NCBI RefSeq assembly: GCF_025147485.1
Contig: NZ_CP102263.1
Coordinates: 3,423,501 to 3,487,500, forward strand
DNA length: 64,000 bases
Origin: Bacteroides uniformis
GTDB taxonomy: Bacteria; Bacteroidota; Bacteroidia; Bacteroidales; Bacteroidaceae
Direction of reading: 5' to 3'
Under the pieces are notes generated by a model that saw nothing but the letters and a program-made list of their open reading frames with translations, was not told where the DNA came from and made no database searches. Numbering within the stretch: position 1 is the first letter of the stretch; the number at the start of each line of letters is the position of its first letter. The position numbers were made by a program, and so were the translations under genes. This document shows, piece after piece, positions 3,428-39,365 of this stretch.

Positions 3428-4196
3428 TCTTACCGCACCGATAGCTGTCGAAAAAGACCGCAACACGTTGACAATCGAACTGATGAACCGTATGAAGCTG
3501 CACGGCATGGCCGCCGCCTTCACTGAAAGCCTAACCTCCACTATGGCAGAAACAATGACAATCGACTCTTTCCTGCACATGTTACTTGCCAGGGAATGGG
3601 ACTACCGTGCCAATGCAGCCATCCAACGCCTTATACGCGGGGCGGCGTTCCGCTACAAGGCCTGCCTCGAGCAGATAGACTATGCAATCCCGCGTGGCCT
3701 TGACCGCAATCAGATGGAGCGGCTTGCATCGCTGGAGTTCATCCGCAAGGGACAGAACCTCTTCATCACAGGGTCATCCGGTACCGGGAAGAGCTTCCTT
3801 GCCACAGCAATGGGGTATGAAGCCTGCAAGAAGGGCATACGGACATATTATGCGAATGCTCCGAAACTTATGGGTACGCTTAAGGTGGCAAAAGTAAAAG
3901 GCACACTGGAATCGGAACTCAAGAGAATCGAACGGAGCACGCTGCTCATATTGGATGACCTCTTCCTTGTGAACCTTGATGCCAAGGAACGACCCATCCT
4001 GCTCGATATAATAGAGGACCGACATGGGCGCAAGTCCATCATCATCACCTCGCAACTGCCAACGGACAATTGGTATGATGCAATCGGAGACCCTACAGTA
4101 GCAGATGCCATTATGGATCGTATTATACATACGGCGCACCGGATTGAGCTGACAGGAGAAAGTGTCCGTAAAATGGCTGCATACAGAGGGAAATAA
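3414..4196 (+). CDS. istB: IS21-family helper ATPase IstB
   Basis: DnaA/DnaC-like AAA+ ATPase that assists IstA in target selection. Walker A GSSGTGKS is at residues 120-127 and Walker B LLILDD at 177-182; the sensor region IIITSQLP follows. At 260 residues it has full family length. Its ATG lies inside the shifted 3' end of istA, which suggests translational coupling. GC content and codon use match istA and differ from the AT-rich flanking DNA. It appears intact, so it could act in trans on related elements. Confidence 0.93.
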   Translation: METNNLTAPIAVEKDRNTLTIELMNRMKLHGMAAAFTESLTSTMAETMTIDSFLHMLLAREWDYRANAAIQRLIRGAAFRYKACLEQIDYAIPRGLDRNQMERLASLEFIRKGQNLFITGSSGTGKSFLATAMGYEACKKGIRTYYANAPKLMGTLKVAKVKGTLESELKRIERSTLLILDDLFLVNLDAKERPILLDIIEDRHGRKSIIITSQLPTDNWYDAIGDPTVADAIMDRIIHTAHRIELTGESVRKMAAYRGK

Positions 4197-4570: not shown

Positions 4571-4589
4571 TTATTTGTCTGACAAATAA
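4571..4589 (+). promoter_or_regulatory. Candidate FadR-type operator
   Basis: TTATTTGTC, one T, then GACAAATAA is a perfect 9-bp palindrome 34 bp before the regulator's ATG. Its core TTGTCTGACAA fits the FadR-subfamily GntR site pattern TNGTNNNACNA. Autoregulation of the following regulator and operon is the natural reading. Confidence 0.6.
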
Positions 4590-4623: not shown

Positions 4624-5370
4624 ATGGAAAACTTAAAAATTGATGGGCAGTCGATTACTTTGGTAGACCAAGTGGAAGACAAGTTATTGAATTATTTCAG
4701 AAGTCAGGACTTGAAAGTGGGTGATTCTATCCCTAACGAAATTGAGTTGTCGTCAGCGTTGGGGGTAGCTCGTAGTGTTCTTCGGGAAGCTCTTAGCCGT
4801 CTGAAAATGATGGGAATGATTGAAAGCCGTACACGTCGTGGAATGATATTAACTGAGCCTTTCATCTTAGGGGGAATGAAGAGAGTGGTTGATCCCCGTA
4901 TTATGAGCCAGGAATCACTTCTCGATCTTTTGGGATTCAGGGTTGCCTTGGAGATAGGAATCAGTAGTGACATATTTCATAATATTAAAGAGCAGGATAT
5001 TATGGAACTGGAAGAGATTGTTAATGCAGGCGTTGCATTGGGGAACAACGAATATGCCAATCTCAGCGAATATACTTTCCATTCAAAACTATACGAAATA
5101 ACGGGGAATAAGACGATTGTACAGTTCCAAAGCATCATTCATCCGGTTATGAACTTTGTAAAAACCAATTTGAGGGAACGGGTGGAAGCTATAAATATAG
5201 AACTGGAGAAAAAGGGAAAGATTGTAACTCACACCGATTTATTGAACTTTATCAAGAATAAGGATGAAATGGGCTACAGAAATGCTATCGAGCAACACTT
5301 TTATGTCTATAAGAAGCTGATTTATGATAGGGCAGTGTTAGGAGAACAGAATAAGGGTCAATCACAATAA
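4624..5370 (+). CDS. FadR-subfamily GntR transcriptional regulator
   Basis: The 248-residue protein has an N-terminal winged helix-turn-helix (residues about 13-80; PNEIELSSALGVARSVLREAL is typical of GntR) and an all-helical FCD-type effector domain (about 95-235) with conserved Glu/His residues suited to metal and carboxylate binding. It is the first gene of the sialic-acid-type locus, 11 bp before the transporter fusion. It probably represses the locus until a sialic-acid-derived ligand binds, like the unrelated-in-detail but same-superfamily NanR of enterobacteria. The palindrome at 4571-4589 is a plausible own operator. Most Bacteroides carbohydrate loci use hybrid two-component or SARP-type regulators; GntR control is less common but known for sialic acid. 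Confidence 0.88.
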   Translation: MENLKIDGQSITLVDQVEDKLLNYFRSQDLKVGDSIPNEIELSSALGVARSVLREALSRLKMMGMIESRTRRGMILTEPFILGGMKRVVDPRIMSQESLLDLLGFRVALEIGISSDIFHNIKEQDIMELEEIVNAGVALGNNEYANLSEYTFHSKLYEITGNKTIVQFQSIIHPVMNFVKTNLRERVEAINIELEKKGKIVTHTDLLNFIKNKDEMGYRNAIEQHFYVYKKLIYDRAVLGEQNKGQSQ

Positions 5371-5381
5371 AAATATGACAA

Positions 5382-7850
5382 ATGACACGGATTGTAAATA
5401 ATTGTGTTGCATTGGTATGCCTTTGTTTGTTTTGGGGTCAAAGCCTGAGAGCTGCAGATGCTTCTCATTCTGAGCAGATAAAGTGGGGCAACGAGAGTGT
5501 TTTTAATGAGGAACACAACACTTTGGGACTCTTTTCCGGAGTACTTGGCGGACAAATTGTATTGGCAGGCGGCACTTCCGACGATTATAGCCGATGGGGA
5601 AGAAATGCGGTATGCCTTTCTGAAAATGCCGGATTCGCTTTGTATGAAGATGTGTTGTCCAAGCCGTTGGCTTATGGCGCTTCCATAACACTCTCTGACG
5701 GTATCTTGTGTATTGGAGGGCGTGATTCTTCCCAATGCTACAAAGATGTATTTCTTGTCACAATGCAGCAGGGCAAACTGAATGTTTCGGAAGATTGGCC
5801 GCCACTTCCTTTTCCGTTGTCTAACGCGGCAGGAGCACTACTGGACAATAAGGTATATTTGTTTGGAGGCAGGAAGTCGGTAAGTCCGTCTAGGTTATCG
5901 GATTCTTTTTTTGTGCTGGACTTGTCGAACAAGTCCAGAGGATGGAAAGAACTACCGGGCTATCCGGGATGCGTCCGGGAAGATGCAATTCTCGTGGTAC
6001 AGAACAACGGCGTTTCCCCTTGTCTGTATTTATTGGGTGGACAGACGGAAACGGAAGAAGGGTTGTCTTCTTGCTTGACTGATGGATATGTCTATAACCC
6101 CCAATTGGGTAAATGGAGTTCATTAGGTTCGGATTTTCCGAAAGGAATATGTGCTGCTGTCGCCAGCGGAGCCAACCATATACTTCTTTTTCAGAAAGAG
6201 CCGGAAGATACACAGCATCTTAAAAAAGAGAATGCTTTATGGAAATACCATACAATTACGCAGACTCTTGTCAAGTCTGAATGTATTCCAGGTACCTATG
6301 ACACCATGCAAGTCTTGCAAAGAAACCGTTCCTTCGTTATACTCGGTAGCAATGCCAGTTCCGGAACGAATAGACTGTACAGCCTTCAAGGGGATATTGT
6401 TCCTTTGGAAAAGGGGTTGGGACTTGTCAATATCCTTGTGATTATCGGTTATTTTGCCGTATTGGCCGGAATTGGAATTTACTTTTCACGGCGCCAGAAA
6501 AGTACGAACGACTATTTCAAGGGTGGAGGACGCATTCCGTGGTGGGCTGCCGGGCTGAGTCTTTTCGGAACCGCGTTGAGTGCCATCACCTTCATGGCTA
6601 TACCCTCCAAGGCATATGCCACGAACTGGAGTTATGTGTTGTTCAATACCGGTATTGTGTTTGTTGCCCCCGTCATTGTTTATGTCTTTATTCCTTTTTT
6701 CCGGAGATTGAATATAACGACTGCCTATGAATATCTGGAGATACGTTTCAATGTCTTTATCCGGGTTATTTGCAGTCTGGCCTTTATTATTTTCCAGGTA
6801 GGGCGTATGGGCGTTGTGCTTTTTCTGCCCTCCATTGCTTTGAATGTGGTGACTGGATTGGATATATTCCTATGTATCGGTATTATGGGAGTTTGTAGTA
6901 TTCTATATACAATGATAGGGGGAATAGAGGCGGTTGTATGGACAGATGCCATTCAAGTAATTGTACTGTTGGGAGGAGCGATATTTGCAGTGATATACAT
7001 CTCGTGTTCTCTTCCCGGTGGATTGGGTGAAACGATTGATATTGCCGTGGCAAACGGTAAGTTCGATTTGGGAGCAACGAACTTTGACTTGAAGGATGCT
7101 ACGATGTGGACTGTCATTATTGCCGCATGTTTTACCCATCTTACCACCTATGGGACGGACCAAAGTATGGTGCAGCGCTATCTCACTACCTCTTCGATGA
7201 AAGAGGCACGGAAGAGTGTATGGACCAATGCGATACTGACTGTTCCCGCCACACTGATTTTCTTCTTTATAGGCACTGCGCTTTATGCCTATTACAAGGT
7301 GTATCCTGAGAATCTGAGTATCAGTATTCCTAACGGCGATGCTATTTTTCCGTGGTATATTTTTACCCAATTGCCGGTCGGTATTGTAGGGTTGTTGATT
7401 TCGGGCATCTTCGCTGCGGCAATGTCCACTTTGAGCGGCAGTATGAATTCGGCAGCCACAGCTTATATAGTAGACATTTATTCACGTTTCTTTCATAAGG
7501 GAGAGGGTGGCAATGAATTGCATGCGGCACGTATGGCAACTTGTGTGATAGGAGTCATTAGTCTATCTTTTGCTTTTCTTATGGCAACATGGAATATCGC
7601 TTCATTGTGGGACGAATTTAACAAGATACTCGGGCTCATATTGGGCAGTATGGGAGGACTGTTCATGTTGGGCATGCTTACCAAACGCGCCAATTCCGGA
7701 GGAGCAATCATTGGTATAGTCGCAAGTATCATCGTACAATTGTTTGTTGCCAGATTCCAGACGTTCCATTTGCTTTTGTACACGGCATCCGGCTTTATCT
7801 CATGTTTTGTCATAGGTTATCTGGCAAGCTTGTTCTTTAAGAAAAAATAG
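5382..7850 (+). CDS. Fusion: periplasmic cyclically permuted mutarotase propeller + sodium/solute symporter
   Basis: A signal peptide (residues about 1-24) is followed by a kelch-type beta-propeller (about 25-345; repeated LYLLGG/VYLFGG and GGRDS segments) like the cyclically permuted relatives of the sialic acid mutarotase NanM. From about residue 346 an SSS-family symporter runs to the end with about 13 hydrophobic segments and the family signature NDYFKGGGRIPWWAAGLSLF. The propeller would sit in the periplasm and convert the released alpha-anomer of the sugar to the form the Na+ symporter carries. At 822 residues it holds both domains complete. Substrate is inferred from the neighbouring lyase and sialidase; a KDN-specific or general sialic acid role are both possible. 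Confidence 0.9.
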   Translation: MTRIVNNCVALVCLCLFWGQSLRAADASHSEQIKWGNESVFNEEHNTLGLFSGVLGGQIVLAGGTSDDYSRWGRNAVCLSENAGFALYEDVLSKPLAYGASITLSDGILCIGGRDSSQCYKDVFLVTMQQGKLNVSEDWPPLPFPLSNAAGALLDNKVYLFGGRKSVSPSRLSDSFFVLDLSNKSRGWKELPGYPGCVREDAILVVQNNGVSPCLYLLGGQTETEEGLSSCLTDGYVYNPQLGKWSSLGSDFPKGICAAVASGANHILLFQKEPEDTQHLKKENALWKYHTITQTLVKSECIPGTYDTMQVLQRNRSFVILGSNASSGTNRLYSLQGDIVPLEKGLGLVNILVIIGYFAVLAGIGIYFSRRQKSTNDYFKGGGRIPWWAAGLSLFGTALSAITFMAIPSKAYATNWSYVLFNTGIVFVAPVIVYVFIPFFRRLNITTAYEYLEIRFNVFIRVICSLAFIIFQVGRMGVVLFLPSIALNVVTGLDIFLCIGIMGVCSILYTMIGGIEAVVWTDAIQVIVLLGGAIFAVIYISCSLPGGLGETIDIAVANGKFDLGATNFDLKDATMWTVIIAACFTHLTTYGTDQSMVQRYLTTSSMKEARKSVWTNAILTVPATLIFFFIGTALYAYYKVYPENLSISIPNGDAIFPWYIFTQLPVGIVGLLISGIFAAAMSTLSGSMNSAATAYIVDIYSRFFHKGEGGNELHAARMATCVIGVISLSFAFLMATWNIASLWDEFNKILGLILGSMGGLFMLGMLTKRANSGGAIIGIVASIIVQLFVARFQTFHLLLYTASGFISCFVIGYLASLFFKKK

Positions 7851-7887
7851 GTTTGAACCTATCATTAATTATAATATAATTTTATTT

Positions 7888-8805
7888 ATGAACAAACGAC
7901 TTTTAACAGGATTAATCGCTGCACCATTTACGCCAATGCACGAAGATGGTTCCTTAAATTTGCAGGTGATCGGGCCGTATGCAGAGTTTCTGATGCAAAA
8001 GAAATGTGTGACGGGAGTGTTTATTTGTGGCACGACGGGAGAATCCGTTTCTCTGACAACAGAAGAACGAAAGGCTGTTGCGGAAAAATGGATGGAGGCA
8101 GCCAAGGGAAAACTGAAAGTGATAGTGCATGTAGGTGGCATGTCGCAGGTTCAGTGTGCCGAGCTGGCAGCCCATGCGCAAGCTATTGGAGCTGATATGA
8201 TAGCAGCCATGGCGCCCTGCTTTTTCAAGCCCGGTTCTGTAGATGAGCTGATAGGTTTTTTCAAGCCGATAGCTGCATCGGCTTCCCGCTTGCCGTTTTA
8301 TTACTATAACATGCCGTCCATAACCGGGGTTTCCTTGCCGGTACACAAGTTCCTTATAGAGGGCAAGAAGCAAATTCCCAATCTGGTGGGAGTCAAGTTT
8401 ACTCATAACAACCTGATGGAGATGCAGCAGTGCATTCATGCGGACGGTGGGGCGTTCGAAGTCTTGCACGGTTTTGATGAGATACTGATTACCGGATTGT
8501 CGGTTGGAGCTAAGGCTGCCGTAGGCAGTACCTACAACTATGTTCCGGGTATATACAAAGCTGTGATGGAAGCCATGGAAAAGGGAGACCTTGAAACAGC
8601 TCGTGAAATGCAATGGAAATCTGTTGAAATCATTGATGTGCTGATAAAGCATGGGGGAGGAGTCAGAGCTGGTAAGATATTCATGAAACTGGCAGGAATA
8701 GACTGTGGACCATGTCGATTGCCGATAGCTCCTTGTTCTGAAGAAGAGCTGGAGGAGACAAGAAACGAATTGAAAAATACGGAATTCTTCAAATACATTA
8801 ATTAA
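7888..8805 (+). CDS. nanA: N-acetylneuraminate lyase family aldolase
   Basis: Class I aldolase of the dihydrodipicolinate synthase/NanA superfamily. It would cleave a sialic acid to pyruvate and a mannose-type sugar in the cytoplasm. Visible features are GTTGES (residues 48-53, pyruvate carboxylate binding), YYYNMP with the catalytic Tyr at about 140, and GVKF with Schiff-base Lys170. The 305-residue length is normal. It sits 37 bp after the transporter fusion and 166 bp before the susC start. The residues that distinguish N-acetylneuraminate from KDN specificity cannot be judged by eye. Related superfamily members with other substrates exist, but the flanking sialidase supports the call. Confidence 0.88.
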   Translation: MNKRLLTGLIAAPFTPMHEDGSLNLQVIGPYAEFLMQKKCVTGVFICGTTGESVSLTTEERKAVAEKWMEAAKGKLKVIVHVGGMSQVQCAELAAHAQAIGADMIAAMAPCFFKPGSVDELIGFFKPIAASASRLPFYYYNMPSITGVSLPVHKFLIEGKKQIPNLVGVKFTHNNLMEMQQCIHADGGAFEVLHGFDEILITGLSVGAKAAVGSTYNYVPGIYKAVMEAMEKGDLETAREMQWKSVEIIDVLIKHGGGVRAGKIFMKLAGIDCGPCRLPIAPCSEEELEETRNELKNTEFFKYIN

Positions 8806-8870
8806 CTAAAAACGATTGCCTATGGAGATATTGCAACAATACATCCAATGAAAAAACTCATTGGCCAACT

Positions 8871-8878
8871 TAAGTTTG
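8871..8878 (+). promoter_or_regulatory. Possible internal -7 promoter element before susC
   Basis: TAAGTTTG matches TAnnTTTG. No convincing -33 element is present at 19-21 bp, so an internal promoter is possible but weakly supported. Confidence 0.3.
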
Positions 8879-8892
8879 ACCCCCGAAAAGGG

Positions 8893-8927
8893 AGGGGAAA
8901 CGAGTATTGGCACTTCCCGTTTCCCCT
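8893..8927 (+). promoter_or_regulatory. Leader hairpin upstream of susC
   Basis: AGGGGAAACG (8893-8902) pairs perfectly with CGTTTCCCCT (8918-8927), leaving a 15-nt loop. It lies 45 bp before the susC ATG with no long T tract after it. It could be an mRNA-processing or stabilising stem that lets susC be expressed more strongly than the upstream genes, or an attenuator. Confidence 0.55.
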
Positions 8928-8971
8928 TAAATAAATTACTGAAACAATTTATTATTAAAATCGTAACAAAG

Positions 8972-11900
8972 ATGAGAAAAATATTTCATTTTCACCTCAT
9001 AACTTTTCTACTATTTTGCCCATTTTTGCTTTGGGCACAAGAATTTAACCTATCAGGTGTAGTAGTGGACAATACTGGTGAAACTCTTCCAGGAGTTTCC
9101 ATCGCTGTGAAGGGTACGACTCGAGGAGTTATTACGGATATGAATGGCGCTTTCCAGCTGAAAGTAAGCAAGGGGGAAACTCTTGTATTTTCCTATGTGG
9201 GCTATGATGAACAGCAAATCCTGATTACTAATCAAAAGATTCTTAACATCCGGATGGAACCGACCACCATGGGGCTGGATGAAGTGGTGGTTGTAGGTTA
9301 TGGTACCCAATCCAAGCGTACCGTAACATCCGCCATCAGCAAGGTGGATGGAGAAACATTGAAGGCAACTCCTATCAATACTGTGGGAGAAGGGCTGAAG
9401 GGTAAAATTGCGGGTGTACGCGTGTACAATGAGAACAATACTCCGGGTGCAGAGGCTACGTTCTTGATTCGTGGTGGTTCATCTATCAGTCAGAGTAATT
9501 CTCCTCTTATATTAGTTGATGGCGTAGAGCGCAGTACAGCGGGTATCAATCCCAATGACATCGAATCTATCGAAGTCTTGAAGGATGCCGCTTCTTCTGC
9601 TATTTATGGTTCGCGTGCATCGAATGGAGTTGTCCTGATTACGACAAGAAAAGGAAAAAGCGGTGCTCCTCGAGTGACGTTTGAGGCTTCCTTTGCAAAC
9701 GAGAATGTGGAGCGGATGATTGAGTATCTGGATGCTACCCAAGCTGTTACTATCATGCGCGATCGTTGGGCTTCCGGACCCAGTCCGGAAAAGTTATACC
9801 TTGACGGATATGCTTATAGTTCCGGCAATACGGATGCTTCCAAGTTTTCTACCCGTTACCTGAGGGATGGAGAGAGCATTCCGGCAGGATGGAAGTCTGT
9901 GGCTGATCCGTTGGATCCCAGTAAGACTTTGATTTTTGAAGATAATGATTGGGCCAGTACTTGTTTCAAGAATGCTCTTTGGCAAAATTATTATGTGGGG
10001 ATAGAAGGAGGTACGGAGAAATTGAGCTATGTGGGCAGTATTGGCTATATGAAAGATTCCGGTGTAGGTGTAGGCACGGCATTCGACCGTTTTAACGCCC
10101 GTACTAATGTAACTGCCAAAATCAGAGAGAACCTGACTTTCAGTAGCAACATAGATTACAGCCAGACGAATAGCGAAGAGTATGCCAGTCAGTATCAGGT
10201 GATTTCCCGTGGACTGATGACCCCGGCCGTTCAACGTAAATATTGGGTGTCTGACAATGAATGGTACGGAACCCCGACGCCAGGTCCAAACTCTTCGTCT
10301 CCGAATCCGAGCTTCTACTCGTATTTTAATGATAACAATCAGCGTACCAACCGTTTGGGGTTAGTCGGCTCTCTTGATTGGGAAGTTTTGAAAGGATGGC
10401 ATGCTGTGGGCACCGCTTCTTTGTTTACGCAAAACAGCCATGGAGATACATTCATGCGTGCCAACCCGATGAATGGAACGCGGAAGGCGACTACCAACAT
10501 GACGGATGAGCAACGGAAGAAACTGGAATTCTACACCAGCTATACAAGAACGTTTGCCGATAAACACAGCATCAGTGCGATGGTAGGATATTCCTATCAG
10601 CAATATTTGTACAAGTATGTGTATGCTGCCACTACCGGACACAGCTCCGACAAGATACCGACATTGAACGGAGGTTCTGTTTATTCCGATGCAACGTCGA
10701 CCAAGCAGGAAGATGTGAATATCGGTTATTTCGGCCGATTGAACTATGATTATCTGAAAAGATATATGTTGACTGCTACTTTCCGTGAGGACGGCTCTTC
10801 CCGTTTTGCCAAAGGCAACCAATGGGGATTCTTCCCCGGATTGTCTGTCGGATGGGTTATGAGTGATGAGCCTTTTATGCAGAATATCGGTTTTATAAGT
10901 AATTTGAAGTGGCGTGGCAGTTATGGGCAGACCGGTAACAACTCCATCGGCTATTACGATGCATTAGGATTGTATGCCATTACCACCAGTTACGATCAAA
11001 GTGCTGCGACCGTTTCTTCGGCCATGCCTAACAAGGCTCTTGAATGGGAGACTTCCACACAATTGGATTTAGGTTTTGATTTAGGCTTGTTCAAGAACCG
11101 CATCATATTGGGTATAGACTATTTCAATAAGATTACGGATAACCTGATTACTTCCAAAGTATTGCCCAATACGTCGGGATACGGTTCCATCCTTACCAAT
11201 CTTGGAAAAGTACGTTTCCGTGGTTTCGATGCTGAAATAACAACACGTAACATTGTCAAGAAGGATTTCACGTGGGAATCTAAATTCACCATTACTTACG
11301 TAAAGAACAAGGTGCTTAAACTGCCCGAAAACGGACGGGACAAGAACCGCCAGGGAGGATACTCTGTAAAAATGCAGGATGGCACGACCAAAGAATTCGG
11401 AGGTGTTGCCGAGGGTGAACCGTTGGGGCGTTTCTATGGATATAAGAAAGACTTTATCATTACAACTCCCGAGCAGGCTGCCAATGCCCGTTATGACACC
11501 TCATCCAAAGGTTGGGACTGGACCACGAAACAGAAACTGGGTGTCGGAAAAAAGACTATCGGAGACTATGAGTGGAAAGACCTGAACGGAGACGATATCA
11601 TCAACAGCAATGATATGTTCCTGCTGGGAAATACGATTCCCCATACCACCGGAGGTTTGAACAATACTTTCACTTACAAGGGCTTCACATTGAATGTCTA
11701 TCTTGATTTTGCTTTGGGGCACTCCATTTCCAATGGTTATCTGCAACGCCAGATGTGTAATTTCATGAATGGAAACACCAGCCTGCCTGCTGAAATCCTA
11801 AAATGCTGGAATGTGGGGGATGACCCGAGTAAGGCCAAGTATGCCCGTTTCTCAGGCAATGACTCCGATGAGTTGAATAAGAATTTCCGGGACAACTCCG

Positions 11901-12151
11901 ATGTTTTCACCCAGAAAGCCGATTATCTCTGTATCCGTGAAATCTCTCTGCAATATGCTCTGCCTCAGGCATTGCTGGCAAAGATTGGTCTGAAAGGGCT
12001 GGTATTGACCCTGGCCGGAAACAATCTGCATTATTTTACGGAAGTAATAGGCCTTTCTCCCGAAGTAGGTGCATCAAGTACCTATTCCGGTAGTTTCAAC
12101 ACCTATCCGCCTATCCGTAAGTTCTCTATCGGATGTAAAGTTACTTTGTGA
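8972..12151 (+). CDS. SusC/RagA-family TonB-dependent outer-membrane transporter
   Basis: The ATG at 8972 gives a proper signal peptide (RKIFHFHLITFLLFCPFLLW, cleavage after WAQ) and a 1059-residue protein; an upstream in-frame TTG at 8861 would bury it. A carboxypeptidase-like domain (about 22-105) is followed by the TonB box-like segment MGLDEVVVVGYG, the plug domain (LKGKIAGV, then LILVDGVER and AASSAIYGSRASNGVVLITTRKG) and a beta-barrel ending in the aromatic-terminated IRKFSIGCKVTL. It imports glycans or glycan fragments with the SusD partner encoded 31 bp downstream, here probably sialylated host oligosaccharides or released sialic acids. Confidence 0.95.
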   Translation: MRKIFHFHLITFLLFCPFLLWAQEFNLSGVVVDNTGETLPGVSIAVKGTTRGVITDMNGAFQLKVSKGETLVFSYVGYDEQQILITNQKILNIRMEPTTMGLDEVVVVGYGTQSKRTVTSAISKVDGETLKATPINTVGEGLKGKIAGVRVYNENNTPGAEATFLIRGGSSISQSNSPLILVDGVERSTAGINPNDIESIEVLKDAASSAIYGSRASNGVVLITTRKGKSGAPRVTFEASFANENVERMIEYLDATQAVTIMRDRWASGPSPEKLYLDGYAYSSGNTDASKFSTRYLRDGESIPAGWKSVADPLDPSKTLIFEDNDWASTCFKNALWQNYYVGIEGGTEKLSYVGSIGYMKDSGVGVGTAFDRFNARTNVTAKIRENLTFSSNIDYSQTNSEEYASQYQVISRGLMTPAVQRKYWVSDNEWYGTPTPGPNSSSPNPSFYSYFNDNNQRTNRLGLVGSLDWEVLKGWHAVGTASLFTQNSHGDTFMRANPMNGTRKATTNMTDEQRKKLEFYTSYTRTFADKHSISAMVGYSYQQYLYKYVYAATTGHSSDKIPTLNGGSVYSDATSTKQEDVNIGYFGRLNYDYLKRYMLTATFREDGSSRFAKGNQWGFFPGLSVGWVMSDEPFMQNIGFISNLKWRGSYGQTGNNSIGYYDALGLYAITTSYDQSAATVSSAMPNKALEWETSTQLDLGFDLGLFKNRIILGIDYFNKITDNLITSKVLPNTSGYGSILTNLGKVRFRGFDAEITTRNIVKKDFTWESKFTITYVKNKVLKLPENGRDKNRQGGYSVKMQDGTTKEFGGVAEGEPLGRFYGYKKDFIITTPEQAANARYDTSSKGWDWTTKQKLGVGKKTIGDYEWKDLNGDDIINSNDMFLLGNTIPHTTGGLNNTFTYKGFTLNVYLDFALGHSISNGYLQRQMCNFMNGNTSLPAEILKCWNVGDDPSKAKYARFSGNDSDELNKNFRDNSDVFTQKADYLCIREISLQYALPQALLAKIGLKGLVLTLAGNNLHYFTEVIGLSPEVGASSTYSGSFNTYPPIRKFSIGCKVTL

Positions 12152-12182
12152 TAAAAGAAGTTTAATACGAAAAATAAGAATT

Positions 12183-13676
12183 ATGAAAATAAAAATATTA
12201 TCCGGCATTCTTCTTATAAGTGGGGTCTCGTTTTTTACATCATGTCATGGAGACCTGAATGTGATACAGCCCAGCCAGTTCACCAGCTTGTCCATGTGGA
12301 CAGAGGAGAGCGATGCTACGAGTGCGGTAAATGGAGCATATACTCAATTCCGTTCCGCCTTTTCCGATTTGCTCAACATCTATGGAGAGATGCGCTCAAA
12401 CTGGTATGAGAGTGGGGCGGTAAATGATGCGTTTTTTAATAGAGTGGGTACAAACGTATTGCTGAGCGGTGATGCAGGTACAAATTGGAGTAGTATATAT
12501 ACTACCATTAATAGTGCAAATTTGATTCTGAAGCATACTCCGGAAATCTCTTTCACCAATGAAGCTACACGTAATGAGGTGATGGCCAATGCCTATTTCC
12601 TACGGGCATATTGTTACTTTACTCTGGTGCGGGTATTCGGTGACTGTCCACTACTGACTTCCGGCTTTGAGTCAGAAAAGCAGGAGGACATGTATCCCAG
12701 CCGTACGGCGGCCTCTGAAGTATATGCTCAGGTCGAAACCGATATAGAAGAAGCTTTAAGGTTGATGCCCGCTTCTTCCAAGCTTCTCCATAAGGCATCT
12801 CCGGCAGCCATCAACATGTTGCGTACTGAATATTACTTATGGAAGGCAAAGCGTCTGGGAGGAGGGAATGCGGCTCTGAGTACGGCGCAGTCTTCTGTTG
12901 ATGCGGTATTGAAAGCCGGATATGCACTTCTTCCCACGTTTGCCGATATTTTCAATTTAAGCAACGAAGCCAATTCTGAGCTTATCTGGACATTGCCCTA
13001 TATCGTCAATGAAAATGTGACTCCGGGAACATCCCCCAACTTTTTCGCCTATTATCTGGCACCTAACGGTGACAGAACCCGGCTGAGGGAAGCCGGATAT
13101 ACCGAGGATGAGGTTCCTGCCGGTTCCCATGCCCAGTATGTTGTGCCCACGCAAGCCTATTGCGATTTCCTGGCTGAGGATGCACGTGACACGCGTACGG
13201 ATGTTTCAGTACGGGTATTCGAGGATAAGTTCCTGACGGAAGAAGTACAGATTAAAAGGATGGTTGTGAAGTTCAAAGGCTCCTTTGCCAATGATACGCG
13301 TAGTTTTGACAGTGATGTCCCCGTCTATCGTTTGGCCGAAGCCTATCTTTTGAAAGCTGAAGTGGAAAATGCCTTGGGAAATACGGATGCCGCTTTGCAG
13401 AATCTGAATGTAGTGGCCAAGCGTGCTTATGGGGTAGACAACTACTACACGGCAAGGACTCAGGATGCCATAGACAATGCCATTATCAGCGAAATACTGA
13501 AAGAGTTTGTCGCAGAATCAAAAGCATGGTGGGCATACCTTCGCTTTAATAAGGAATTCGAGCTTATTGAGACCTTGAAGGGGCGTGAAGGGGAGAAGAA
13601 TGTTACCTTGTGGCCTATTGCTCCTGCTTGTCTCAATACTAATCCGAATATAACACAAACGGAAGGTTACAAATAA
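12183..13676 (+). CDS. SusD/RagB-family surface glycan-binding lipoprotein
   Basis: The start at ATG 12183 gives a lipoprotein signal (hydrophobic stretch, then FFTSC lipobox Cys at about residue 20). The 497-residue protein has the SusD N-terminus (SLSMWTEESDATSAVNGAY), the TPR-like core (AYFLRAYCYFTLVRVFGDCPLL) and the C-terminal RagB-type segment (RLAEAYLLKAEVENALGN). It forms the lid on the SusC barrel encoded just upstream and gives substrate selectivity. The pairing and spacing with susC are standard for a polysaccharide utilisation locus. Confidence 0.95.
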   Translation: MKIKILSGILLISGVSFFTSCHGDLNVIQPSQFTSLSMWTEESDATSAVNGAYTQFRSAFSDLLNIYGEMRSNWYESGAVNDAFFNRVGTNVLLSGDAGTNWSSIYTTINSANLILKHTPEISFTNEATRNEVMANAYFLRAYCYFTLVRVFGDCPLLTSGFESEKQEDMYPSRTAASEVYAQVETDIEEALRLMPASSKLLHKASPAAINMLRTEYYLWKAKRLGGGNAALSTAQSSVDAVLKAGYALLPTFADIFNLSNEANSELIWTLPYIVNENVTPGTSPNFFAYYLAPNGDRTRLREAGYTEDEVPAGSHAQYVVPTQAYCDFLAEDARDTRTDVSVRVFEDKFLTEEVQIKRMVVKFKGSFANDTRSFDSDVPVYRLAEAYLLKAEVENALGNTDAALQNLNVVAKRAYGVDNYYTARTQDAIDNAIISEILKEFVAESKAWWAYLRFNKEFELIETLKGREGEKNVTLWPIAPACLNTNPNITQTEGYK

Positions 13677-13689
13677 ATATTGGGATGAT

Positions 13690-15321
13690 ATGAGATATAA
13701 GACTATACTTTTACTGGTCTTGTCTGCTTGGGGCATCATGGCATGCCAAAATTATACGGATAAGATAGCGGTGGAGATTCGGCAACCGGTATATCCGGTG
13801 TTGACATTGAAGGAGCATAATCCGGTATTGTGTCTGCGTCTGATTAGGAACAGCGGCGTGGCATATCAGTTGGAAAAGATAAATTTCACTTTGGATGGAA
13901 CTGTCCGTTCCGGTGATGTCGTTTCCGCTTCGCTGTTCTTGGATAAGAATTGTGGGCAGGTTTGTGCAAGTGCCAAACCGGTGAACAAACAATTGAGTTT
14001 TAAGGTAGGCCGGCAGATAGAGGAAGATACACTGACATGCTGGGTGACACTCCGACTGAGGGATGATGCGGCGCAGGCTACAAGCAAGATTGAAATCTCA
14101 TGCAGCAGTGTCCAGACAGACTTGGGGCTGGTGGGCATCCGCCAGTTGCCCGCAGTAAAGCCGCTCCGTATAGGAGTGGCCCTGCGGCAGCCGGGTCAGG
14201 ACGGGGTACACACTTCCCGCATTCCCGGATTGGTGACTTCGACGAAAGGTACCTTGCTGGCCTTGTATGATGCACGCAATGAAAGAGATGACGATTTGCA
14301 GGGCGACATTGATATTGCCATCAATCGCAGTGAAGATGGAGGGCGGACTTGGCAACCCATGCAGACTGTTCTGGATATGAAAGAATGGGGCGGGCTACCT
14401 CAGAAATATAATGGAGTGAGTGATGGTTGCATCTTGTCGGATGATTTCACCGGAGACCTCTATGTCATAGGGTTATGGATGCACGGAGTCTTGGACCCCA
14501 AGACGGGCAAATGGATAGAGAATCTTACCGATACCTCGACCGTATGGAACCACCAGTGGCGTGCGCACGGTTCTCAGCCGGGATATGGTGTCAAACAAAG
14601 TTCTCAATTCCTGATTAGTAAGAGTACCGACGACGGACTTACCTGGAGTGAGCCGCGTAACATTACCCGCCAAGTAAAAAAGGAAAAATGGTGGCTGCTT
14701 GCTCCCGGACCGGGTCGTGGCATCACAATGGAAGACGGTACATTGGTATTTCCGGTAGAGGGGCGGAACGAAGACGGGCTTCAGTTCTCTACAATCATGT
14801 GGAGTAAAGACAAGGGCGAAAACTGGACCGTAGGCGAACCGGCCTACTACAATACCAACGAATGTCAGGTGGTAGAACTTTCAGACCATTCCTTGATGTT
14901 GAACATGCGTGAGCGCAGCAACCGGGGACGTCAGGAAGGTAATGGGCGGGCCATTGCCGTCACTGCCGATTTGGGAAAAACGTGGACGGAACATCCCACG
15001 TCGCGCAGAGCTCTCATTGAACCGGCTTGCCAGGCATCCTTGCTGCGCCATGATTATATTGAAGACGGAGAAGAACGTCATGTATTACTCTTTGCCAATC
15101 CTAATTCAAAAGAGCGCCGTAACAACATTACCATTAAGGTGAGTTTCGATGACGGGCAAACTTGGCCCGAGGAGTATTGGATGTTGTTGGATGAAGGTAG
15201 GGGGGCGGGGTACTCTTGCATGACTTCTATTGACGAGCATACCATAGGTATCTTTTATGAGGGGAGTCAAGCCGACATTCAGTTCCAGGCTATCCCGCTG
15301 AAAGAATTATTGAAGAAATAA
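13690..15321 (+). CDS. GH33 sialidase (exo-alpha-sialidase), lipoprotein
   Basis: A lipoprotein signal ends in IMAC (Cys19), so the enzyme is probably anchored at the outer membrane or cell surface. Residues about 25-145 form the BNR-neuraminidase N-terminal beta domain, followed by the six-bladed propeller. The catalytic hallmarks are the RIP motif (R177), an Asp-containing loop (ARNERDDDLQGD, about 195-206), EPACQ for the Glu partner, and the Tyr region GAGYSCM. At least five Asp boxes are visible (SEDGGRTW 214-221, STDDGLTW, KDKGENW, DLGKTW, FDDGQTW). The 543-residue length is normal. It would release terminal sialic acids or KDN for the transporter and lyase in the same cluster. Confidence 0.93.
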   Translation: MRYKTILLLVLSAWGIMACQNYTDKIAVEIRQPVYPVLTLKEHNPVLCLRLIRNSGVAYQLEKINFTLDGTVRSGDVVSASLFLDKNCGQVCASAKPVNKQLSFKVGRQIEEDTLTCWVTLRLRDDAAQATSKIEISCSSVQTDLGLVGIRQLPAVKPLRIGVALRQPGQDGVHTSRIPGLVTSTKGTLLALYDARNERDDDLQGDIDIAINRSEDGGRTWQPMQTVLDMKEWGGLPQKYNGVSDGCILSDDFTGDLYVIGLWMHGVLDPKTGKWIENLTDTSTVWNHQWRAHGSQPGYGVKQSSQFLISKSTDDGLTWSEPRNITRQVKKEKWWLLAPGPGRGITMEDGTLVFPVEGRNEDGLQFSTIMWSKDKGENWTVGEPAYYNTNECQVVELSDHSLMLNMRERSNRGRQEGNGRAIAVTADLGKTWTEHPTSRRALIEPACQASLLRHDYIEDGEERHVLLFANPNSKERRNNITIKVSFDDGQTWPEEYWMLLDEGRGAGYSCMTSIDEHTIGIFYEGSQADIQFQAIPLKELLKK

Positions 15322-15350
15322 AAGTATAACACCTTAAAAAATAGATAAAT

Positions 15351-16019
15351 ATGAAACGCAGTGAAATCAATCAATATATCCGCGAAGCCAAAGCATTTAT
15401 GACAAAGTACCACTTCATGCTGCCTCCATGGGCGGACTGGACTCCGGACGACTGGAAGACCAAAGGACCGGAATGTGATGATATCCGGGAAAGAGCCATG
15501 GGTTGGGACCTGACCGACTTCGGCTGGGGCGATTTCCTGAAAATCGGCCTGACGCTGGTAACCCTCCGTAATGGAAGTCTGCAGAAGAAAGACAAACCCT
15601 ATTGTGAAAAGATTATGTTTGTCCGCTGCGGACAAGTTACTCCCACCCATTTCCATTGGCTGAAAACGGAAGACATCATCAACCGGGGTGGAGGAATCCT
15701 CTGCATGCGTCTGTGGAAGGCCGACAAGGAAACTGAAATGCTGACTGAAGAACCGCTTGTCGTTTCCATCGACGGAGTCAGTACACGGGTAGCTCCCGGA
15801 GAAACGGTGCGTCTTGCTCCCGGACAAAGCATTTGTTATGAGCCTTATCTCTACCATACTTTCTGGGCCGAGGACGACCATTGTCTGGTAGGCGAAGTCT
15901 CTACAGTGAACGATGACATGAGAGACAACCGTTTCCTCACCCCCAAGGGGCGTTTCCCGCAGATAGAAGAGGATGTTCCGGCCGAACATCTGTTGTGCAA
16001 CGAATATCCCGAAGTTTAG
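15351..16019 (+). CDS. D-lyxose ketol-isomerase family protein (cupin; candidate mannose isomerase)
   Basis: The 222-residue single cupin resembles D-lyxose isomerases (EC 5.3.1.15), enzymes known to interconvert D-lyxose/D-xylulose and also D-mannose/D-fructose. Likely metal ligands are H100 and H102 (THFH), E107 (KTEDI) and H169 (YHTFWAE). There is no signal peptide, so it is cytoplasmic. It stands between the sialidase and aldose 1-epimerase genes. ManNAc cannot be ketol-isomerised because C2 carries the acetamido group, so its presence in a sialidase/lyase cluster is puzzling unless mannose is formed, as from KDN. Role in this locus is inference. Confidence 0.85.
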   Translation: MKRSEINQYIREAKAFMTKYHFMLPPWADWTPDDWKTKGPECDDIRERAMGWDLTDFGWGDFLKIGLTLVTLRNGSLQKKDKPYCEKIMFVRCGQVTPTHFHWLKTEDIINRGGGILCMRLWKADKETEMLTEEPLVVSIDGVSTRVAPGETVRLAPGQSICYEPYLYHTFWAEDDHCLVGEVSTVNDDMRDNRFLTPKGRFPQIEEDVPAEHLLCNEYPEV

Positions 16020-16024
16020 AAAGT

Positions 16025-17110
16025 ATGAAAGATAAGACCAACCTGACGGGATTGAATCCTGATAATTTCCGGTCCGTAATCAACGGAAAGGATACCGGCC
16101 TTTATATACTGCGCAATGGCAGCGGTATGGAGATGTGCGTCACGAACTACGGGGCCATCGTCTTATCCATCATGGCTCCTGATAGTCATGGTAAGTTTGA
16201 AAATGTCGTCATAGGCTTCGATACGCTGGAAGAGGCCCGCAGGCAAAGCAAGGACTATTATATAGGAGCTACTATAGGCCCCGTAGCCGGACGCATATTG
16301 CACGGCGCTTTCCGTGTAGGAGAAAAAGATTATCACTTACAGCTTAACTCTGTTTCTAATACTCTGCACAGTGGTGATAACGGTTTTCACACGGTGGTGT
16401 GGGAAGCACAGCAACCGTGTGAAAACCAACTTCTCCTCCGGCATTTCCATGCCGATGGAGAAGCCGGTTTTCCGGGCAATGTTACGGTAAGGATGATGTA
16501 TACCTTGACGGACGACAATGGGTTCCGTATAGATTATGAGGCGGAGACAGACCGCGACACCTTGTTCTGTCCCACCAATCATGCCTATTTTAACCTGGCG
16601 GGCATGGGAACTCCCACTACTTCCATTGAAGACCATCTGGTGAGGATAAACGCGGATTTCTACCTGCCTATCGACATGAATACGAACAATACCGGTGAAG
16701 TCAGGGCAGTGGGCGATACGCCTTTTGATTTCCGCGACTACCATTCCATAGGCGAACGCATCAACCGGAAAGACTTGCAGTTGCTCAACGGCCACGGTTA
16801 TGACCACTGTTTTGTCTTGAAGAAACCCGCGCTGCATGAGCTCTCTTTCGCCGCCACCTGCATCAGTCCGTCCAGTGGGCGCAGAATGGATATCTATACC
16901 ACAGAGCCGGGGCTTATCATGTACACCGGCAATTATTTGCCGGGCTTCACGGGCATGCATGGCACTGTGTATCCGCGTCGTAGCGCCGTCTGCTTTGAAA
17001 CCCAGTGCTTTCCCGATACACCGAACAATCCGCATTTCCCCTCCATCGTATTACGTGAAGGAGACCTTTATAAACAGACATGTATTTATCAATTCAGTAC
17101 GCAACCATGA
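16025..17110 (+). CDS. Aldose 1-epimerase (mutarotase, GalM family)
   Basis: ATG 16025 is 5 bp after the previous stop codon; an upstream in-frame TTG would overlap the isomerase gene. The 361-residue protein has the GalM features: NTLHSGDNGFHTVVWEA, the catalytic His in CPTNHAYFNL, substrate Asp in YDHCFVL, and the catalytic Glu in VCFETQCFPDTPN. It interconverts alpha and beta anomers of aldoses in the cytoplasm (no signal peptide). Next to a D-lyxose/mannose-type isomerase it would feed the correct anomer of the aldose released by the lyase. Its stop codon overlaps the next start (ATGA at 17107-17110), so the two are translationally coupled. Confidence 0.92.
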   Translation: MKDKTNLTGLNPDNFRSVINGKDTGLYILRNGSGMEMCVTNYGAIVLSIMAPDSHGKFENVVIGFDTLEEARRQSKDYYIGATIGPVAGRILHGAFRVGEKDYHLQLNSVSNTLHSGDNGFHTVVWEAQQPCENQLLLRHFHADGEAGFPGNVTVRMMYTLTDDNGFRIDYEAETDRDTLFCPTNHAYFNLAGMGTPTTSIEDHLVRINADFYLPIDMNTNNTGEVRAVGDTPFDFRDYHSIGERINRKDLQLLNGHGYDHCFVLKKPALHELSFAATCISPSSGRRMDIYTTEPGLIMYTGNYLPGFTGMHGTVYPRRSAVCFETQCFPDTPNNPHFPSIVLREGDLYKQTCIYQFSTQP

Positions 17111-18186
17111 AAAACAGAATCATTCTTTGTTTGGGATGCCTGCTGGCATTCCTCCAGCTCCGGGCACAAGTCAATACCAACCAGCAGCATTTGTGCAATC
17201 CTAATTCTTTTTCCATCGTCCTGCTGGGCGACCCGCAAAACTACGTGAAGTATGACTATAACCAGCCGGTTTTTGAGCTGATGACGGCGTGGACCGCTCA
17301 TCATATAGACTCCCTCCGTGTAAAGGCGGTGCTTTGTACGGGCGACTTGGTAGACCAGAATGAATGTATTCTACCTCCCTTCCCGCGTTTCGGGAATCTT
17401 ACGAGCCGGGAGCAGTGGACATTTGTGTCGCGGGCTTTCGGGCGGTTGGACAACAAGGTCCCTTATCTCATTTCTACCGGAAACCATGATTACGGCTACA
17501 CCCGTTCGGAGAACTCGATGACCCGTTTCCCGGAATATTTCCCGATAGAGCGCAACAGCCTATGGAGAAAGACCATCGTGGCCGCCACCAATAACAGAAA
17601 CGGCCTGCCTACGCTGGAGAATGCCGCCATGGAGATAACGGACGAGCATTGGGGGAGGATTTTGATTATTGCCGTTGAATTTGCCCCGCGCGACGAGGTC
17701 TTGTCATGGGCCAGGGAGCTGGTGGCTGCCCCGCGCTTCAAGGACCATACGGTGATTCTCATCACCCATTCCTACCTTACCGGCTTCGACAGCAAGCGCA
17801 TCACCAAAGAAGGCTATAAGATAACCCCGTCCAATACGGGCGAAGGCATCTGGCAGAAGCTGGTGCAACCTTCCGCCAACATCCGTCTTGTGTTGTGCGG
17901 ACACTATGCCACTCCGAATGAACGGTTGGACTATACCACGGGATTCCGTACCGACAAGAATGCAGCCGGACACGATGTGCACCAGATGATGTTCAACTGC
18001 CAGGCGTTGGGTGGCGGCATGAGTGGAAACGGGGGAGACGGCTGGCTGCGTCTGCTCGAATTCCTGCCCGACGGACATACGGTGCAGGTCAGGACCTATT
18101 CTCCGCTTTTCGGCTTTTCTCCTCAAACCAAGGACAAGGCATGGCGTACGGAATCTTATGACCAGTTTCAATTCACGATAAAATAA
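17107..18186 (+). CDS. Secreted calcineurin-like metallophosphoesterase
   Basis: Starting at ATG 17107, in ATGA overlap with the preceding gene, the 359-residue protein has a signal peptide (RIILCLGCLLAFLQLRAQ). Two-metal phosphoesterase motifs follow in order: GDPQ (D of motif I, about residue 40), TGDLVDQNE, STGNHDYG, the late His motif LITHSY, and LCGHYA. It should act in the periplasm or at the surface. Phosphoesterases are not a standard part of sialic acid loci; it might remove a phosphate or phosphodiester substituent from the glycan, but the substrate is unknown. Confidence 0.87.
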   Translation: MKNRIILCLGCLLAFLQLRAQVNTNQQHLCNPNSFSIVLLGDPQNYVKYDYNQPVFELMTAWTAHHIDSLRVKAVLCTGDLVDQNECILPPFPRFGNLTSREQWTFVSRAFGRLDNKVPYLISTGNHDYGYTRSENSMTRFPEYFPIERNSLWRKTIVAATNNRNGLPTLENAAMEITDEHWGRILIIAVEFAPRDEVLSWARELVAAPRFKDHTVILITHSYLTGFDSKRITKEGYKITPSNTGEGIWQKLVQPSANIRLVLCGHYATPNERLDYTTGFRTDKNAAGHDVHQMMFNCQALGGGMSGNGGDGWLRLLEFLPDGHTVQVRTYSPLFGFSPQTKDKAWRTESYDQFQFTIK

Positions 18187-18191
18187 AAAAT

Positions 18192-18791
18192 ATGAAGCGT
18201 ATATCAATTATTTATTCATTAATACTCTTTTGTATGTATTTATCAGCACAGACAAGTCCGGAGTGGACTTCCGGAAATGCGAAGAAATGGATGAAAAGTG
18301 CCGTTTGGTCCAATGGCTGGACTGTCTCTCCCCATAAATCAGTCAATGCTGTTGAATTTGCCTGCCAATATCATAAGAACAAGGATGTCTGGGATGCTGC
18401 ATTCCGCTTTCTTGCCGAACATGATTTGGAAGCGCTGTCCATTGGCAACCATGTCATTCTGGAGGGGAAATGCTGGGCTACGGTCAGTGAATACATTCCC
18501 AAAGAGGTGGAGAAAGGGAATATTGAAAGTCACCTCCGTTTTGTCGACCTTCAGTATGTACTCTGGGGAAATGAAAAGATGGGGCTGGCAAGTGACGTCG
18601 AAGTACGTCAGGCGTATAATTCAAAAAAGGATGTTGCTTTTTATACCTCTTCCCGGATAAAACACTACTCTGCCGATGCCGGCAGTTTCTTCTTGTTTTT
18701 CCCTTCGGACATTCACCAGCCTTCTGTTCGGGGAAAGGGGGAACTTGTTAAAAGCAGGAAGATTGTGATTAAAATAGAATATGTAGATTAG
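18192..18791 (+). CDS. YhcH/YjgK/YiaL family protein with signal peptide (candidate sialic acid anomerase)
   Basis: The 199-residue protein starts with a signal peptide (ISIIYSLILFCMYLSAQ), followed by the DUF386 cupin-like beta-barrel. The family's C-terminal FFPSDIHQP motif (His for metal binding) and the conserved RFVDLQYVLWG segment are visible. The E. coli relative YhcH (NanQ) speeds anomerisation of sialic acid and is cytoplasmic. Here export to the periplasm would place it beside the propeller domain of the transporter fusion. It is the last gene of the locus; a gap with the proS promoter follows. Confidence 0.85.
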   Translation: MKRISIIYSLILFCMYLSAQTSPEWTSGNAKKWMKSAVWSNGWTVSPHKSVNAVEFACQYHKNKDVWDAAFRFLAEHDLEALSIGNHVILEGKCWATVSEYIPKEVEKGNIESHLRFVDLQYVLWGNEKMGLASDVEVRQAYNSKKDVAFYTSSRIKHYSADAGSFFLFFPSDIHQPSVRGKGELVKSRKIVIKIEYVD

Positions 18792-18852
18792 TGTGTTTTC
18801 GGTTCTATTAAAAATACTATTTGTTTTTCAAATAAATTTCCTTTAAAATTTG

Positions 18853-33319: not shown

Positions 33320-33532
33320 AAGATGGAAACGTATTGTTGGTAGGAATAGGTGAGGCTACAACTACGGCTGCAAAGCCATCGGGTGTGGGACGGTGAATAT
33401 CTTGGAGCAGGTAGATTTCACGTTTCTTTTTTGCAACTTGTGAAATTTGAATATATCTATATGAATAATAACTGTTTAACAAGCGAAAAGGTAGAAAATA
33501 TTCAACTACTGATTCGCATTATTTAAGAAATA

Positions 33533-34645: not shown

Positions 34646-34681
34646 ACCAACAGCTTCCTTTACAATAATAAATATGTCTTT

Positions 34682-35569: not shown

Positions 35570-35655
35570 GCTATTGATAATGAGCTTATTATTGGTGAAT
35601 TTTGTTGTTTTGTATAAATCTGATTTCTTGCCTAAAGTAGGTAAAAGGCTAAACC

Positions 35656-36270
35656 TTGATTGAAGTTAGTCCGACTGACGCACCCGATTACTGGGCTATA
35701 CGTGGTTGGACAAATACATTGCAAAAAATGAGTTATGATGCGGATATTTGCTTTTTGGGTAATTCAATTACGTATGCGAGTAATTTTCAAACTTATTTCA
35801 CGGATAAGAAGATTGTAGAACTAGGCTATCCTGGTGATACCATGATTGGCATGATGCGACGTATGGATATGCTGCGTGCTGTTTGCCCTGAAAAAGTGTT
35901 TTTGATGGCAGGTATCAATGACTTGGCAAATCAAAGTATGGATATGGATGAGTTTGCTGAGCGGTATAATGTTTTAGTGGATTCTATAACTAACGCTTGT
36001 CCTCATGCAGAAGTCTATTTGGAATCTATACTTCCAGTCAATCGTAGTCATAGAATGTATAGAAACTGTGACAGAATTATTCAAGCTAATCAAATTATTA
36101 CTCGTATAGCAGGTGAAAAAGGAATGATATATATTGACCTATTTTCTCTATATTGTATAGATGGACAGCTGCCTGATGAACTAACTAATGATGGCATTCA
36201 TCTTTTACCAAAAGCTTATGATAGATGGGCTGAAGCTATTCGTGAGTATGTAACAAGTTCTCTCAAATAA
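35656..36270 (+). CDS. SGNH/GDSL hydrolase, probably with a frameshifted N-terminus
   Basis: The protein has block I FLGNSIT (Ser nucleophile), AGINDL (block III Asn) and the Asp/His pair NDGIHLLP (block V), plus YWAIRGWTNTLQKM before block I, as in Bacteroides sugar O-acetylesterases. The 204-residue frame has only a TTG start at 35656. In the frame ending just there, ATG 35580 encodes a short hydrophobic start (MSLLLVNFVVLYKSD...GKRLNLD) that would form a fitting membrane anchor. A single-base shift near 35658-35663 would join the two. It may remove or transfer acetyl groups on the polysaccharide. Confidence 0.8.
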   Translation: MIEVSPTDAPDYWAIRGWTNTLQKMSYDADICFLGNSITYASNFQTYFTDKKIVELGYPGDTMIGMMRRMDMLRAVCPEKVFLMAGINDLANQSMDMDEFAERYNVLVDSITNACPHAEVYLESILPVNRSHRMYRNCDRIIQANQIITRIAGEKGMIYIDLFSLYCIDGQLPDELTNDGIHLLPKAYDRWAEAIREYVTSSLK

Positions 36271-39362: not shown

Positions 39363-39365
39363 GGT

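Follow-up and report, generated by a model that had tools for sequence, protein, structure and literature searches.

We analysed a stretch of Bacteroides uniformis DNA of 64,000 nucleotides (the window; bases 3423501-3487500 of a genome of 4.63 Mb in a single contig, with a completeness rating of 99.98%) that carries a putative sialic acid utilization operon. Ten genes on the + strand (window positions 4624-18791) lie directly 3' of a conserved palindrome (Table 1). In order, they encode a GntR-FCD regulator, a kelch-symporter fusion, a NanA-type lyase, SusC, SusD, a GH33-type sialidase, a D-lyxose isomerase family cupin, an aldose 1-epimerase, a metallophosphoesterase and a YhcH/DUF386 protein. 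They are separated by 11, 37, 166, 31, 13, 29, 5, -4 and 5 nt, lengths which depend on the start codons picked in our analysis. A first-pass annotation had placed lyase, sialidase, cupin, propeller/symporter fusion and aldose 1-epimerase in one same-strand cluster, and profile matches found all five on the + strand. The range assigned to this cluster (7888-16019) covers only the middle of the operon, the fusion and the aldose 1-epimerase falling outside, and the regulator, SusC/SusD, the metallophosphoesterase and the YhcH/DUF386 protein are additional members. As had been stated, no NanE, NagA, NagB or ROK family is found among the profile matches of the ten genes. At the locus, the closest named relative is Bacteroides rodentium JCM 16496, where the ten genes are 95-100% identical and SusC is in three pieces. 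Since the operon gene order is found again in other families of Bacteroidota, the clustering is not due to chance.

Table 1. Features of the operon, with positions in the window
Feature	Position	Strand	Evidence
17-bp palindrome TATTTGTC-N-GACAAATA, probable operator of the GntR regulator	4572..4588		perfect copy, conserved upstream
GntR-FCD transcription factor (NanR-like)	4624..5370	+	PF00392 1.5e-13, PF07729 2e-8
kelch propeller (NanM-like, partial) + sodium:solute symporter fusion	5382..7850	+	PF24996 1e-21, PF00474 1.7e-46
NanA-family lyase, distinct lineage (clade 2)	7888..8805	+	PF00701 6e-63
SusC-type TonB-dependent transporter	8972..12151 (probable start; open reading frame (ORF) listed from 8861 TTG)	+	TIGR04056 855 bits
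SusD/NanU-like lipoprotein	12183..13676 (probable start; ORF listed from 12069)	+	NanU model 170 bits, cut-off 425
GH33-type sialidase, distinct subgroup	13690..15321	+	PF13859 2e-31, PF13088 2e-27
D-lyxose/D-mannose isomerase family cupin	15351..16019	+	PF07385 2e-95 (318.7 bits)
aldose 1-epimerase (GalM family)	about 16025..17110 (ORF listed from 15995 GTG)	+	PF01263 8e-75; NF008277 above cut-off
calcineurin-like metallophosphoesterase	17107..18186 (ORF listed from 17080)	+	PF00149 1.3e-8
YhcH/DUF386 protein, probable sialic acid anomerase family	18192..18791	+	PF04074 2e-30; TIGR00022 above cut-off

The lyase belongs to the dihydrodipicolinate synthase (DHDPS)-type barrel family and shows the features of N-acetylneuraminate lyases (NALs), namely the Schiff-base lysine, the sugar motif (GFDE), the VGST block and the tyrosine (E. 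coli Tyr137, Asp191/Glu192). Its residues K170, Y140, D197, E198, S214, T49, T50 and T172 align with active-site residues of E. coli NAL. It scores below both nanA equivalog models (188 bits, cut-off 281; 178 bits, cut-off 382) and shares 39-45% identity with canonical NanA of the family. No other close NanA-type match exists in its own genome, the second match being a 25% identical homologue elsewhere that we read as DapA-like. Using a profile of the lyase lineage, one genome per species was surveyed (84,980 species), which yielded 424 relatives, and the best 80 loci were kept. A quick tree of the lyases has a branch with 95% SH-aLRT support that sets the window and 13 of these loci apart, with the E. 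coli NanA outgroup on their side. The window lyase, whose lineage is here called clade 2, has the VGST aldol-cleavage block of NAL groups 1 and 2, whereas canonical Bacteroides NanL has IGGT. For two tested enzymes of these groups, mannose is reported to be used at 95 and 91% of the N-acetylmannosamine (ManNAc) rate, compared with 10% for a group 3 enzyme (PMC4016182). E. coli NanA is described as cleaving N-acetylneuraminate (Neu5Ac) and deaminoneuraminic acid (KDN) with similar efficiency (PMC13220900). Because its catalytic residues are those of ordinary NALs, which accept both sugars, the substrate of the window lyase cannot be proven from its sequence; KDN cleavage is plausible, and Neu5Ac would fit the active site as well.

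A residue-level prediction of substrate was tried and rejected. At the 80% level, the 67 clade-2 and the 28 canonical sequences compared differ at 33 positions and one gap column, with six distant clade-2 rows omitted and the canonical rows being the best-scoring family matches below 50% identity. These positions do not mark KDN use since it is canonical NanL that deviates, clade 2 resembling ordinary NALs of the human/E. coli type. Where the lyases of E. coli and human read GST and G[YV]DE, canonical NanL of the genus and family has IGGT and GQDE, a block resembling that given for group 3 in PMC4016182.

In the first-pass annotation, the cluster was read as possible KDN catabolism with mannose going directly to fructose, the alternative being a ManNAc epimerase (NanE) encoded elsewhere. 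The genome search for nanE that it called for gave two weak matches to PF04131 (the bacterial NanE family), none above cut-off, and five to PF07221, the N-acetylglucosamine (GlcNAc)/ManNAc 2-epimerase kind used by Bacteroides. One of the five, at 2.90 Mb (L008:9226-10401), is a true GlcNAc 2-epimerase (E 7e-156 to solved enzymes), and the alternative therefore had to be tested. We searched 99 genomes of the genus with this acylglucosamine 2-epimerase (AGE; E <=1e-30) and with the lyase (E <=1e-40). Lyase matches fell into two groups, one at least 58% identical to the window lyase (10 genomes, own included) and one at 41-46% (39 matches in 36 genomes, one partial). The latter, canonical NanA, is accompanied within 5 kb by an epimerase of the 34-40% class in 38 of 39 cases (the exception is the second lyase of genome G281), and the two coincide in 36/36 genomes. 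None of the ten clade-2 lyases has any AGE match within 20 kb. Six of these ten genomes also carry the canonical lyase-epimerase pair, which makes a different role for the second lyase probable. That NanE is not adjacent characterizes the lyase lineage as a whole and is not peculiar to a single locus. The route does look separate from the usual Nan route, as proposed; the linkage result holds for the genus.

Of the 99 genomes, 32 have the 2.90-Mb-type epimerase; 24 of these lack a NanA match at E 1e-40, and the enzyme thus probably serves something other than sialic acid there. It is not associated with the clade-2 lyase (5/10 vs 27/89 other genomes, Fisher p 0.29). PF04131 is above cut-off in none of the ten clade-2 genomes, six of which have weak matches of 21 to 22.5 bits. 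One of the genomes, a metagenome-assembled genome (MAG; G211, with the same coordinates as L075, an uncultured Mediterranea MAG; 99% complete), holds the full locus including the cupin, with neither AGE (E 1e-30) nor PF04131 (E 0.001) giving a match, though an epimerase could fall in an assembly gap since the genome is in 100 contigs. Of its two PF07221 matches, one was examined (L157); it shares 68% identity with an own-genome protein that we label cellobiose-epimerase-like and 21% with AGE. In a genome of another genus (G040), the lyase is present and PF07221 has no match (PF04131 was not searched there). Among the 80 related loci, AGE is the best label at one place only, 9 kb away in a Verrucomicrobia record (L146).

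The isomerase is, in turn, a regular member of loci in the window's lyase subgroup. In all eight subgroup loci whose contig continues past the sialidase, the cupin directly follows it; in the other five of the 13, the contig runs out before the sialidase is complete or right at its end. Two Pedobacter loci on a separate branch of the lyase tree hold the cupin in the same place. Altogether, 10/80 related loci have it, from Bacteroides, Mediterranea, Muribaculaceae, Rikenellaceae, unplaced Bacteroidales and Pedobacter, its start lying 3 to 51 bases beyond the sialidase match and its sequence kept down to 60% identity. Elsewhere the cupin is rare, with 2/99 genomes of the genus (both with this locus) and 8/201 of the family at E 0.001, and 3/395 of the phylum at E 1e-30. 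None of the stretches read around the remaining seven copies in the family showed a lyase match. By eye, six of these copies (L060-L065, other genera of the family) have a class II aldolase and a probable sugar kinase of the PfkB type nearby, likely a ketose pathway. A single ancestry of the lyase-linked cupins was considered and not adopted: in a cupin tree, the 11 linked cupins cluster with one unlinked cupin (L059) among them, and a single clade is not rejected (p-AU 0.3). The sole PDB match of the window cupin is E. coli D-lyxose isomerase (3KMH, 7e-62), and H100, H102, E107 and H169 are invariant in the 19 cupins compared; we take these positions to be the metal ligands of the E. coli enzyme. 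An aldose-ketose isomerase requires a C2 hydroxyl, which mannose has and ManNAc does not. No open-licence PMC paper joining D-lyxose isomerase with sialic acid was found, subscription papers being outside the scope of the search.

The sialidase likewise forms a subgroup of its own. Its best PDB match is the B. thetaiotaomicron sialidase 4BBW (2e-109), and it is 37-38% identical to the GH33 proteins of three canonical nan loci. A total of 34 proteins from 32 related loci share at least 45% identity with it across 450 residues, compared with less than 40% for the 48 other GH33 proteins. Within the subgroup, NG[VI]SD replaces NGVGD, and a loop of 18-19 columns is inserted after the W-x-[HY]-G motif.

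Further, the lineage shares a probable operator. The perfect copy of the palindrome, TATTTGTC-N-GACAAATA, lies 35 nt 5' of the regulator ATG, and the inverted repeat TTTGT-N3-ACAAA is common to 41/55 regions upstream of the regulator gene (regions which are related and not independent), compared with only 2 to 5 for the commonest palindrome in 20 base shuffles. Copies with up to two mismatches occur anywhere in 54/80 related loci and in 0/8 loci with canonical-type NanA (L066-L073); the GntR-FCD regulator is matched in 59/80. In the B. uniformis genome, the scan covered the window and 11 further stretches. At three mismatches, two operator-like matches were found in one stretch (L009) and one in another (L017), which is near chance level. 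The first-pass annotation had named a nanE elsewhere that is co-regulated with the locus as evidence against KDN use. As far as sequence tells, this objection is weakened, because a search allowing up to three mismatches finds no operator copy in the 19.5 kb of sequence surrounding the 2.90-Mb epimerase (L008). Of the NanE-elsewhere alternative, the existence of a true GlcNAc 2-epimerase stands, while neither the operator nor a shared distribution with the lyase was found. An imperfect palindrome after the last gene (18818-18834, TATTTGTTTTTCAAATA), with three mismatches to the operator, could be a terminator or a second site.

With modest confidence, we interpret the operon as a self-contained utilization locus for KDN, a rare sialic acid, that converts KDN to pyruvate and mannose and the mannose to fructose. 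KDN catabolism is the best explanation because the lyase lineage is uncoupled from ManNAc epimerase and, in the window's subgroup, coupled to a mannose-class isomerase. In the proposed route, the GntR regulator bound at the palindrome would control the operon, the GH33 enzyme would release KDN outside the cell or at its surface, and SusC/SusD would carry it across the outer membrane. The kelch-symporter fusion would interconvert anomers and import KDN, whose ring would be opened by the YhcH protein before the lyase cleaves it to pyruvate and D-mannose. The GalM protein would equilibrate the mannose anomers, the cupin would isomerize mannose to fructose, and a fructokinase presumably encoded elsewhere would phosphorylate the product. 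Taken as a whole, the first-pass interpretation is partly supported. More tentatively, and with a chance that we would put just short of even, the relatives may represent a second sialic acid system across Bacteroidota, that is, a GntR-controlled, operator-tagged family of polysaccharide utilization loci (PULs) with its own lyase and sialidase lineages that acts on KDN and not Neu5Ac, the window's subgroup having a KDN-mannose-fructose shunt that bypasses amino-sugar metabolism.

Several observations weigh against the KDN interpretation. The window lyase shows no demonstrated KDN-specific residue, and its closest solved relatives include human NPL, for which KDN is reported as the poorest substrate tested (PMC13220900). 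In case of the cupin, the score is below the NCBI equivalog cut-off for D-lyxose/D-mannose isomerase (NF051472, 265.9 of 350 bits), and 58 other clade-2 loci of the tree lack the gene (some contigs are short), 37 of them forming one supported group. D280 of T. forsythia NanH is described as binding the N-acetyl group of Neu5Ac (PMC9472817), and its equivalent, mapped by counting positions, is conserved in the window GH33, with a different neighbouring loop. Of four canonical-type loci in other genera, two have an AGE match near the lyase (L071, L072) and two do not (L066, L067). In L072, moreover, a NanA of the canonical type and a 70% relative of the 2.90-Mb epimerase are 3.6 kb apart and flank a kelch-symporter fusion. 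Finally, no Sphingobacterium name turned up in the 120 top-scoring relatives of the lyase or sialidase of Pedobacter, a set in which most entries are unnamed. The N-acetyl pocket of GH33 was also considered as an indicator of KDN use and rejected; with D280 kept and the adjoining loop different, it gives no pocket size.

The 2.90-Mb epimerase, which matches solved GlcNAc 2-epimerases, gives substance to an unlikely but serious alternative, in which the operon is a Neu5Ac or broad sialic acid locus whose lyase yields ManNAc, the distant epimerase forms GlcNAc, and the isomerase is accessory for other sugars. NAL active sites accept Neu5Ac, and the 2.90-Mb locus (L008, own genome 2892500-2912000) contains, mostly by eye, a ROK-type regulator, a major facilitator superfamily (MFS) transporter and SusC/SusD-like genes, some of which have relatives at nan loci. 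Its ROK regulator, adjacent to the epimerase, is 64-83% identical to regulators at most about 4 kb from canonical nanA in L068, L070 and L071. In L070, a locus of the genus, relatives of three of its genes flank the canonical nan genes, among them the MFS transporter (71%) and a putative hydrolase (56 and 77%). Together with the NanA-clustered epimerase relative of L072, this indicates that the 2.90-Mb locus has nan connections in evolution; its epimerase still does not track the clade-2 lyase. The missing operator copy, the occurrence of this epimerase mostly in genomes without NanA and the MAG that has the locus without such an epimerase all speak against the Neu5Ac explanation.

Growth data point in the same direction, provided that they concern the same locus. 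B. uniformis CL03T12C37 is reported not to grow on 3'- or 6'-sialyllactose, and its one listed GH33 is in PUL16 (INE75_01450-01456), which contains SusC, SusD, GH33, an aldose 1-epimerase and three functionally unassigned genes and is described with no substrate named; growth was modest with an added B. dorei GH33 and full with four core genes (PMC10761964). These seven genes correspond to the window genes from SusC to YhcH, matched by gene content and description only, which tempers the argument for KDN. If PUL16 is this locus, its native sialidase does not serve Neu5Ac-sialyllactose under the conditions reported there. Missing induction or linkage preference would equally explain the lack of growth.

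We consider it quite improbable that the locus handles another 2-keto-3-deoxy acid, such as 3-deoxy-D-manno-octulosonic acid (Kdo), with D-arabinose as product, or an acid yielding D-lyxose. The cupin family is named for D-lyxose; we know of no natural nonulosonate that gives this sugar, and the NanM-, YhcH- and GH33-type partners point to sialic acids. Kdo is reportedly cleaved by E. coli NanA and human NPL (PMC13220900), but D-arabinose and D-lyxose are given as 0.6-2.4% substrates of the tested NALs, compared with 10-95% for mannose (PMC4016182). Least probable of all is a locus that takes up sialic acid solely for its pyruvate, or passes mannose or ManNAc to general metabolism, with the cupin as an inherited passenger, which would agree with the compact operons of other lyase subgroups that have no downstream enzyme (e.g. 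L131) and not with the fixed place of the cupin immediately after GH33 in every readable subgroup locus and both Pedobacter loci, even at 60% identity.

If the KDN reading is right, KDN glycans are a real nutrient for gut Bacteroides, and it could be explained why a sialidase-positive Bacteroides fails to grow on sialyllactose. The presence of GH33 and NanA in a genome annotation would then not equal Neu5Ac use. The locus also supplies candidate KDN-specific sialidases and lyases.

Other components of the operon vary among the relatives. Either half of the kelch-symporter fusion is matched in 52/80 related loci, the metallophosphoesterase in 9/10 and the YhcH/DUF386 protein in 8/10 cupin loci. 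The window YhcH protein scores 72.8 bits with TIGR00022 (cut-off 45.5) and 55.5 bits with the N-acetylneuraminate anomerase equivalog NF040884 (cut-off 160). Loci of other clade-2 subgroups (L131, L098, L117) hold a regulator, a kelch protein or fusion, lyase, SusC/D and one or two GH33 genes, sometimes with an MFS-like transporter (by eye), and no downstream enzyme. In 13/80 related loci (L086, L093, L138 and others), sulfatase-like proteins were seen by eye near the lyase, and sulfated sialic acids may be a substrate class. Just 5' of the operon, at window 1846-4196, two + strand genes resemble by eye an IS21-type transposase pair and have a GC content of 0.53, compared with 0.47 for the operon. 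A VapE-like/BT4734-like protein is encoded on the minus strand at 24183-26312, and glycan biosynthesis genes (polysaccharide pyruvyl transferase, glycosyltransferases, NAD-dependent epimerases) occupy 31562-47400.

Compared with known systems, the cupin resembles E. coli D-lyxose isomerase (3KMH/3MPB) in being a PF07385 protein with conserved His/His/Glu/His positions; to our knowledge, the E. coli enzyme has no link to a sialic acid lyase. The Bacteroides fragilis NanL-NanE-RokA system, as reviewed in PMC10017367, shares with the window a lyase accompanied by mutarotase-, SusC/SusD- and GH33-type partners, as in the nan loci of relatives. The window differs from it in having a GntR and not a ROK regulator, no NanE, an additional isomerase and only 39-45% lyase identity, and both the ManNAc 2-epimerase beside the lyase and the ROK regulator/kinase in the cluster that define NanLET membership are missing. 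Closer to the proposed function is Sphingobacterium, also of the Bacteroidota, from which an aldolase active on KDN and not on Neu5Ac or N-glycolylneuraminic acid (Neu5Gc; Nakagawa 2022) and a S. multivorum KDNase (Nishino 1996) have been reported (PMC10017367, PMC7845648, PMC5778107). By description, a sialidase and a NanA-family lyase act on KDN there, as is proposed for those of the window; unlike at the window, no isomerase or PUL is mentioned in these descriptions. In the aldolase, the residue at position 50, given as Asp50 in the review, is said to matter (PMC10017367). Residues 47-53 of the window lyase read CGTTGES. The abstract of the 2022 aldolase paper is said to name Asn50 at this position. 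As far as these descriptions go, a KDN-specific aldolase and a KDNase are already on record for Sphingobacterium, and the window locus would be a variant of that kind in which a dedicated isomerase passes the mannose on to fructose.

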